The notes below the pieces were generated by a model. The model saw only the letters and a list, made by a program, of their open reading frames with translations. It searched no databases and was not told the DNA's origin. A stretch of DNA of 64,000 nt from Phragmitibacter flavus (GTDB lineage: Bacteria > Verrucomicrobiota > Verrucomicrobiia > Verrucomicrobiales > Verrucomicrobiaceae): contig NZ_VAUV01000002.1 in the NCBI RefSeq assembly GCF_005780165.1, forward strand, positions 62,001 through 126,000, in the 5' to 3' direction. Below, piece by piece: positions 17,260-19,398 of this stretch. Position numbers and translations under genes: made by a program. The first letter of the stretch is position 1. The number at the start of each line of letters is the position of its first letter.

Positions 17260-17433
17260 GTCCCAACGGGACGATTCATCAAAGCCCGGCACAGGGTGCC
17301 GGTGGGGAGAAATTAGGGGGCGTTCTAAAGGAACGAATCATGCGCATTAAGTGGCGAGAGATGCACTCCGCATGAGGCGTCCCAGTAGGACGCAACCAAA
17401 CCCTCGACAAAACCCGGCACCTTGTGCCGGCTG
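17260..17433. repeat. REP-like hairpin array, left of the group II intron
   Basis: Five short hairpins follow each other: GTCCC-AAC-GGGAC (17260-17272); CCGGCAC-AGG-GTGCCGG (about 17286-17302); CGTTC..GAACG (about 17319-17333); GCGTCC-CAGTA-GGACGC (about 17377-17393); and CCGGCAC-CTT-GTGCCGG (17414-17430). The first two make one 43-bp repeat unit (17260-17302). The last hairpin, with the bases right of the intron (19377-19398), makes a second, inverted copy of that unit. A degenerate fragment of the same unit is at 55934-55949. The array is typical of REP/BIME elements; no RAYT transposase is in the window. Confidence 0.8.
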
Positions 17434-18034
17434 GTGTGCTTGGCATGAACATGAACTAATCAGATGAAAGGAACTGATCGGAGACGATGGGAGTCAACCG
17501 TAGCCGGAGACAAGGTAGCGGACCGCGAGGCCGTGGCTGAAAGGTCGACCGAAGGGAGACAGCCAGCCGCAGGCTGCCCCGAAGGGGTGGAGCGAAGCGA
17601 CAGCAACTCCGAGGCAAAATCTCGACCACAGGAACACGAAGAGTCAGCGAGGCAGGATGCGGGCGGCGAGCGTGCCAGCAAACGCGAAGCCCAAAACCCA
17701 TCAAGACGCATCAAGTAAAGGCTCGTGGCCCGAGAGGACAGTGCATGTTCTTACCCAAGGAGACCTGTTTGATGAAAATCAGACAGGAGTCAGCAGAGGT
17801 CGTAGTAGTGAAGAGAGCCAGCGAAAGCTGGAAGGAGCGAAGGGCCGAAGGAACAACTGCAAAGCGACCAACGCGACTGTGGACCGCGCAGAACCCGCCC
17901 AAACGTCAGCCGTCGGAAGTGGAAGCCCCACCGAGCACGGCACGAACCCGAACCGCCCAGAGGGTGAAGCCCTTGTAAACGGTGAGGGGAGTGGCACTGC
18001 GGCAACCACGCGTAGCGAAGGACAGAGGCCAGCA

Positions 18035-19282
18035 ATGCAGGAGGTAACGATGGAAGCTGCCGTAGAGGAAGCCAACTGGGATGCCGCACTCCACGCTGTG
18101 GAGCGCAACAATGGTGCCCCAGGCCCCGACGGCATGCGAGCTAAAGAACTGCGGGATCACCTCGCCAAGCATGGAGAAGGGATCAAAGCCAAGCTGCTGA
18201 GAGGCAGTTTTGAACCTTCTGCAGCAAGGCGTAAAGAGATCCCCAAACCCAATGGCGGCACCCGGCCATTGAGCATCCCCAACGTGCTGGATCGGTTCGT
18301 GCAACAACTGCTGCTGCAAATCATGCAGCCGAGCTTTGAACCAAGGTTTAGTGAAGCGAGCTACGGGTTTAGACCCGGACGTAGTGCGCACCAAGCCGTC
18401 AGAGCAGCACGGCATCACGCACAGGAAGGGAGGGATTGGGTGGTGGACATGGACATCACCAAGTTCTTTGACCATGTGAACCACGACATCCTCATGGCGC
18501 AGGTGAGTTGCGTCGTGAAGGACAAACGAGTGCTAAAACTCATTGGGCGGTTCCTCAGAGCAGGGATCGTCCTGCCAGATGGATGCAAAGTAAGCACCGA
18601 AGAGGGCACCCCACAAGGAGGCCCACTATCACCGCTGCTGGCCAACATCTATCTGGACCAGCTCGACAAAGAGTTGGAACGCCGAGGCCTCAAACACGTC
18701 CGCTACGCCGATGACTGCAACATCTACGTGAGCAGCCAGAAGGCTGCGCAACGAGCGATGGAAAGCATCAAGGAATGGATAGCCAAGAGGCTGAAGCTGC
18801 AAGTCAACGTGGAGAAGAGCGGCACAGGCCGGGTTTGGGAACGCAAGTTCCTGGGCTTCATTCTCACCATCGCGCTGCTCATCGCCATATCCCCGCAAGC
18901 TGTGGCGAAGTTTAAAGACCAAGTCCGGACGAAATGGGATGCGAGACAATCGATGACCAGCGAAGAGATGCGCGACCAATGGAGGAACTATCAGCGAGGC
19001 TGGTGGGCATACTATGGGAAGGCGGAGGATCGCAAAAGCGTCCTGAGACTCAGCGGATGGATACGCCGCCACATCAGGAAGTGTTTTTGGCTCCGATGGC
19101 ACAACGCCAAAGGACGCCGGGCAGCCTTTGTCCGACTGGGAATCCCCCCGAGTCGAGTCGATATAGCTCACAGCAGTCGAGGAGCCTGGCGCATGGGGCG
19201 GCACCCCGTGATGCAGGAAGCGCTCAACAACCGGAGACTGAAACGATATGGGTTTATCACACCATCTGACCTCGCGGGATAA
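18035..19282 (+). CDS. ltrA: Group II intron-encoded reverse transcriptase/maturase
   Basis: 415 residues from the ATG at 18035, which has an AGAGG ribosome-binding site six bases upstream. The frame is open back to 17657, but that part lies in intron domain I-IV RNA and lacks protein features. The RT domain has IPKPNGGTRPLSIPNVLDR, SYGFRPGRSAHQAV, the metal-binding DMDITKFFDHV, GTPQGGPLSPLLANIYLD and the active-site YADD box. The maturase X domain follows (WRNYQRGWWAYYG). The C-terminus has no H-N-H motif. It should help intron splicing and target-primed reverse transcription. No frameshift or stop is seen. Confidence 0.93.
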   Translation: MQEVTMEAAVEEANWDAALHAVERNNGAPGPDGMRAKELRDHLAKHGEGIKAKLLRGSFEPSAARRKEIPKPNGGTRPLSIPNVLDRFVQQLLLQIMQPSFEPRFSEASYGFRPGRSAHQAVRAARHHAQEGRDWVVDMDITKFFDHVNHDILMAQVSCVVKDKRVLKLIGRFLRAGIVLPDGCKVSTEEGTPQGGPLSPLLANIYLDQLDKELERRGLKHVRYADDCNIYVSSQKAAQRAMESIKEWIAKRLKLQVNVEKSGTGRVWERKFLGFILTIALLIAISPQAVAKFKDQVRTKWDARQSMTSEEMRDQWRNYQRGWWAYYGKAEDRKSVLRLSGWIRRHIRKCFWLRWHNAKGRRAAFVRLGIPPSRVDIAHSSRGAWRMGRHPVMQEALNNRRLKRYGFITPSDLAG

Positions 19283-19299
19283 GCCCCGCGTTGTGTCCA

Positions 19300-19376
19300 A
19301 CCGCCGGATGCGGAAAACCGCACGTCCGGTGGTGTGGGAGCCCTGACGGGTGCAAATCCCGTCAGGGCCACCCGAT
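19300..19376 (+). ncRNA. Group II intron domains V and VI
   Basis: Domain V is the 34-nt hairpin at 19300-19333; it has the CGC catalytic triad, the stem CCGGATGCGG / CCGCACGTCCGG and an AAAA loop. Domain VI is the stem GCCCTGACGGG / CCCGTCAGGGC at about 19340-19368. An unpaired A at 19370, seven bases from the 3' border, is a candidate branch point. Confidence 0.85.
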
Positions 19377-19398
19377 TGATGAATCGTCCCGTTGGGAC
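19377..19398. repeat. Right half of the REP copy split by the intron
   Basis: With base 19376, this segment is the exact reverse complement of 17260-17282 (23 bp). It contains the CGTCCC-GTT-GGGACG hairpin. It belongs with the hairpin at 17414-17430 on the other side of the intron. Confidence 0.85.

Follow-up and report, generated by a model that had tools for sequence, protein, structure and literature searches.

Do the short palindromic repeats scattered through a bacterial genome serve a group II intron as homing sites? The question is raised by a locus of Phragmitibacter flavus where such an intron splits one unit of an inverted repeat pair. The window, that is, the whole stretch of DNA analysed, comprises 64,000 nucleotides of contig NZ_VAUV01000002.1; positions given below are those of the window, and all features described lie on its forward strand. 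The explanation that we consider probable is that a mobile group IIC intron occupies one arm of a REPIN-like element, that the subclade to which it belongs targets hairpins other than terminators, and that REPs are its homing sites throughout the genome.

The interrupted repeat

The left arm of the element (17260-17302) is a 43-bp unit of two hairpins, GTCCC-AAC-GGGAC (hairpin A, 17260-17272) and CCGGCAC-AGG-GTGCCGG (hairpin B, 17286-17302), joined by a linker. A strict pattern search found at least 26 copies of this unit across the 5.9-Mb genome and none of a reversed-pattern control. The inverted right unit is split. Its hairpin B, CCGGCACCTTGTGCCGG at 17414-17430, ends 3 nt upstream of the intron and forms the stem-loop of the 5' exon, while the rest of the unit, TGATGAATCGTCCCGTTGGGAC from 19377 on, forms the 3' exon (19377-19398) with a first base T19377, the linker and hairpin A (19386-19398). 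Two smaller hairpins lie between the end units: GCGTTCTAAAGGAACG at 17320-17335, replaced by GCGTCCTnnnGGGACGC in other copies, and, in the right half, CGTCCCAGTAGGACG at 17378-17392, both read from the sequence and the alignment of copies. From 17260 to 19398, leaving out the intron, the palindromic element measures about 180-200 bp, and with the flanks joined its single strand is predicted to fold as one long hairpin. Inverted pairs elsewhere in the genome have unit starts 154-158 bp apart, compared with 154 bp in the window element. Like REPs and REPINs, the repeat is a short palindrome present in many copies and frequently in inverted pairs. One pair encloses a gene for a RAYT-like transposase (Y1_Tnp; contig C3 of the P. 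flavus assembly, 348022-348687) that is split by a frameshift. We call the element REPIN-like because of the repeated units, the inverted pairs and the long-hairpin fold.

The intron, its borders and its exon pairings

The insertion at 17434-19376 is an intact group II intron of 1943 nt that begins with GTGTG and ends with CCCGAT. Rfam matches to RF02001, RF01998 and RF00029 mark intron domains at 17592-17749, 17751-17845 and 19299-19376; the RF00029 match ends exactly at 19376, and the last interval contains domains V and VI with A19370 as the candidate branch point. The intron encodes an RT/maturase of about 410 amino acids (18050-19282) that matches TIGR04416 at 376 bits. RVT_1 and GIIM were the sole domains found in it, and an endonuclease domain is absent. 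Its frame is open from 17657, and the ATG at 18050, preceded by a GGAGG at 18040, is the likely start. Against maturases of solved structure it scores 408 bits with GsI-IIC, 305 bits with the Eubacterium rectale maturase and 124 bits with LtrA. In a tree of 58 RT sequences it falls in a clade of 44 rows (SH-aLRT 95) together with GsI-IIC, the E. rectale maturase, an integron-borne IIC intron and a locus that is presumably the class C intron of Sinorhizobium meliloti GR4, a single such intron having been reported from a replicon of that strain (PMC5894124). Inside class C, the window RT belongs to a subclade of 25 rows with a support of 100, which spans Verrucomicrobiota, Acidobacteriota, Lentisphaerota, Pseudomonadota and other phyla. 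The ribozyme shows the same pair of Rfam matches, RF02001 and RF01998, as introns of the class C clade; in the same comparison an intron from outside the clade matched RF01999 and a long-ORF Enterococcus intron RF02004. A stem-loop lies directly upstream of the insertion site, as in class C introns. On the Rfam matches, shared ends, exon pairings and RT tree, we assign the window intron to group IIC (class C).

Nested in domain I is a further short palindromic repeat of about 60 nt (17546-17606), which is absent from the aligned relatives of the intron and occurs at four other places in the genome, making a repeat within an intron within a repeat. The matches elsewhere were considered as additional intron copies and rejected, given that there is no Rfam match at these places and one intron RT genome-wide; they are a separate short repeat. 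No further copy of the intron was found in the P. flavus genome.

When 17433 is joined to 19377, the result is a restored unit of 42 bp with two substitutions and one gap relative to the neighboring copy; against other REP copies of the genome it mostly shows 2-8 substitutions, again with one gap. Border shifts of up to 3 nt on either side restore about equally good units, so alignment to the REP copies leaves the borders undecided within this range, and a border taken from it alone was discarded. The exact borders are instead set by the ribozyme: in relatives the first bases are GTGTGC, or almost so, and the last are CCCGAT or similar, and these shared ends fix the borders together with the pairings between intron and exons. 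A preliminary description, made from the letters of the window, had reported the inverted recurrence of the 43-bp unit, its interruption by a class C-like group II intron, and the recovery of the unit with about two differences upon removal of 17434-19376. All of its coordinates proved correct, and copies, Rfam and TIGR04416 matches and RT phylogeny bear these points out. It had further presented the locus as its own model of the empty site, from which the borders could be read; this holds for the restored unit, while the exact borders need the ribozyme ends and the pairings.

These pairings are visible as covariation. EBS1, CAGC at 17676-17679 in a loop of domain I, is complementary to IBS1, GCTG at 17430-17433, the final four nucleotides of the 5' exon. 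Among relatives, where IBS1 spans the final 4-5 nt of the 5' exon, the corresponding EBS1/IBS1 pairs are TAGG/CCTA, TGGG/CCCA, GAGT/ACTC and TAGCG/CGCTA, with weaker pairing in a few members (L066, L054 and L068). EBS3, a single base within a GTA[A/G]A motif, is A17718 in the window intron and pairs with T19377 (IBS3). The same A/T combination occurs in four other class C introns, while G/C is found in subclade relatives and one other class C intron; EBS3 is a G in all 21 aligned subclade rows, and wherever the 3' exon of these can be read, its first base is C. The window site thus reads GCTG|T and lies in the linker that separates the hairpins; this full match to IBS1 and IBS3 is available in four of the 26 REP units.

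Targets of related introns

To what extent the position of the window intron reflects a rule can be judged from its subclade. Flanks could be read at 20 subclade sites. At 14 of these a perfect stem of 7 bp or longer ends 1-4 nt before the intron (counted by hand from the stem-search output), compared with 5.3% of 5400 random positions in the same loci. No T-run follows the hairpin at the window site or at any subclade site displayed, and stems and loops are wholly different between hosts. In our explanation, introns of the subclade insert a few nucleotides past GC-rich hairpins that are not terminators.

Eighteen host genomes, most of them metagenome bins, were searched with their own joined exons, and in ten of these the hairpin beside the intron recurs as a dispersed repeat, the weakest cases being those with 2-3 copies. 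Non-self copies at E<=3.3e-8 number at least 15 in P. flavus, 26 in a Fluviicoccus bin, 20 in a Lentisphaerae bin, 19 in one Bryobacterales bin and 3 in another, 5 in a Bryobacteraceae bin, 3 in Thiocystis minor and 2 in a Rhodocyclaceae bin. These numbers, counted by hand, are lower bounds from about 21 candidates scored per genome. Control segments 250-330 bp upstream gave 0-2 non-self copies, mainly in genomes with larger duplications. Pattern searches found the target of Methylobacter marinus in 62 places against none for the control, and gave 52 hits against 2 for that of another host (L057). Dispersal was not found in six hosts by BLAST, which misses short hairpins, and the repeats of two further genomes (G077 and G083) turned out to be larger duplicated segments and were excluded from the count. 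One locus (L083) yields no 3' exon and the flanks of two others (L054 and L055) are masked. The repeat targeted in Thiocystis is also present in many copies in another genome (G079), but the intron of that genome (L101) is located at a different hairpin.

In most genomes with dispersed targets, uninterrupted copies of the repeat span the insertion point. Since they align unbroken across it, they represent natural empty sites; the intact copies show the target as it was before insertion, so that target rules can be read without comparing strains. The genus of P. flavus consists of a single genome, which leaves no close strain with an empty site at the orthologous locus.

Taken together, these observations are probably explained by the following series of events. 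An RT/maturase-encoding group IIC intron without an endonuclease domain would have reverse-spliced into one arm of the REPIN-like repeat after recognising the extruded hairpin, with EBS1 pairing to the four nucleotides at the foot of the hairpin and EBS3 to the base that follows. Insertion would take place into single-stranded DNA, for example at a replication fork, and dispersed REPs would act as homing sites across the genome. A preference for REPs over other hairpins and a present-day activity of the intron are likewise inferred. Counterpoints are the presence of one intron copy against at least 26 REP units in P. flavus, only four of which match both IBS1 and IBS3, and the hosts in which dispersal was not found or the repeats are larger duplications. 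The suggestion of the preliminary description that REP hairpins are homing sites could not be carried by that one copy; it gains its support from the related introns, some of which (for example in M. marinus) also lie beside REP hairpins, and from the ten of 18 hosts in which the targets are dispersed and the control segments are not. Such use of dispersed repeats as landing sites, in place of the gene-end signals of better-known relatives, would add a third kind of hairpin target for class C introns and make landing sites of retroelements out of REPs.

A more specific proposal concerns the sequence of the site. Of 18 sites for which both flanks are available, nine read CTA|C (3' ends were assigned by pattern, and those of L059 and L075 are uncertain by a few bases). 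The insertion point splits the complement of GTAG. A large superfamily of REPs carries this tetranucleotide as an unpaired tag, and a RAYT recognises and cleaves it (PMC3733652, citing earlier work). Repeats of M. marinus show the tag, the clearest copies reading GTAG-GGTACGCnnnGCGTACC-TTTT, and the two introns at GGTACGC hairpins in this organism occupy the tagged foot and not the opposite one. There may exist a class C lineage specialised on REPs, in which both EBS1 and EBS3 can pair with the foot of the REP hairpin and insertion hence falls inside the GTAG tag (on the intron strand, CTA|C), the tetranucleotide that RAYTs cleave; we see the case for and against this as evenly balanced. If true, REPs would join terminators and attC sites as the third standard class C target, and retro-introns and RAYTs would compete for one motif. 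M. marinus A45 carries three near-identical intron copies (L058, L079 and L080): two are at the GTAG-tagged foot of the REP found in 62 places and the third is at a different hairpin near such REPs.

Another possibility is that these introns recognise any hairpin with a matching IBS1 of 4-5 nt, and that REPs are often occupied merely as the commonest hairpins. Dispersal found for only part of the targets, the complete difference of stems and loops among hosts and the lack of a GTAG tag at the window target would fit this, as would the ability of class C introns to read the stem-loops of both terminators and attC sites (PMC4424553, PMC7923331). We nevertheless think it rather unlikely, as the exact complement of GTAG is present at half of the readable sites, the two M. 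marinus introns share the tagged foot, and none of the displayed sites has a hairpin with a T-run, even though terminators are common too. Since dispersal was found for only part of the subclade's hairpins, the rule may be a hairpin plus short pairing, often a REP, rather than a REP alone.

Ordinary class C insertion behind an intrinsic terminator, with the REP hairpin serving as the terminator, would be expected of an intron of this class, for which terminators are the usual target. Five ordinary class C introns that we read for comparison all follow a hairpin with a T-run; the missing T-run at the window and displayed subclade sites led us to reject a terminator as target and makes this reading very improbable. 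That the intron landed in the REP by chance, as in any intergenic insertion, agrees with its single copy in P. flavus and is scarcely credible in view of its position at the stem, its EBS/IBS pairings and the recurrence of the association, relative to controls, in unrelated hosts.

Relation to known systems

Reviews name terminators and attC sites as the targets of class C introns (PMC4424553, PMC7923331). We found no published description of a class C lineage that targets REPs, in a search mostly outside subscription journals, so that novelty is provisional. A table of Tobes and Pareja, 2006, lists two of nine group II introns of Pseudomonas putida KT2440 as REP-associated, which is not discussed further in the passages of that paper that we found (PMC1525189). 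The same paper describes insertion sequences that likewise insert at REPs, namely ISPpu9, ISPpu10, ISPa11 and ISPsy8; unlike the window intron, these are DNA transposons and not retroelements, and lack ribozyme pairing.

GTAG-tagged REPs and REPINs with their RAYTs (PMC3733652, PMC3116915) resemble the targets described here in being dispersed palindromes, in inverted pairs in the window genome and tagged with GTAG at one foot in M. marinus. The window repeat differs in being a larger two-hairpin unit; many of its copies begin with CGTC, yet within the stem, it has no unpaired GTAG, and the RAYT-like gene that REP units flank is frameshifted.

Terminator-type class C introns such as B.h.I1 and GsI-IIC share with the window intron the RT phylogeny, the maturase without endonuclease domain, the RF02001 and RF01998 matches, the stem-loop in the 5' exon and the short EBS1/IBS1 and EBS3/IBS3 pairings. 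The targets of the window intron and its subclade are instead GC-rich palindromes lacking a T-run, often dispersed repeats of REP type. IIC-attC introns of integrons are also class C introns with a non-terminator hairpin as target. In contrast to these, no attC site or cassette was recognised near the window intron, which lies in a dispersed REP-like element; its RT is outside the branch of the integron-borne intron, and IBS1 is GCTG, CCTA or CCCA in the window and its relatives, and not TTGT. Four other introns from the same family as the window genome (L123, L124, L125 and L126) belong to class C and group with the integron-borne IIC intron, and in two of them the 5' exon ends in TTGT or TGGT. 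One of the four, L124, is located directly 3' of the apparent 3' end of another group II intron.
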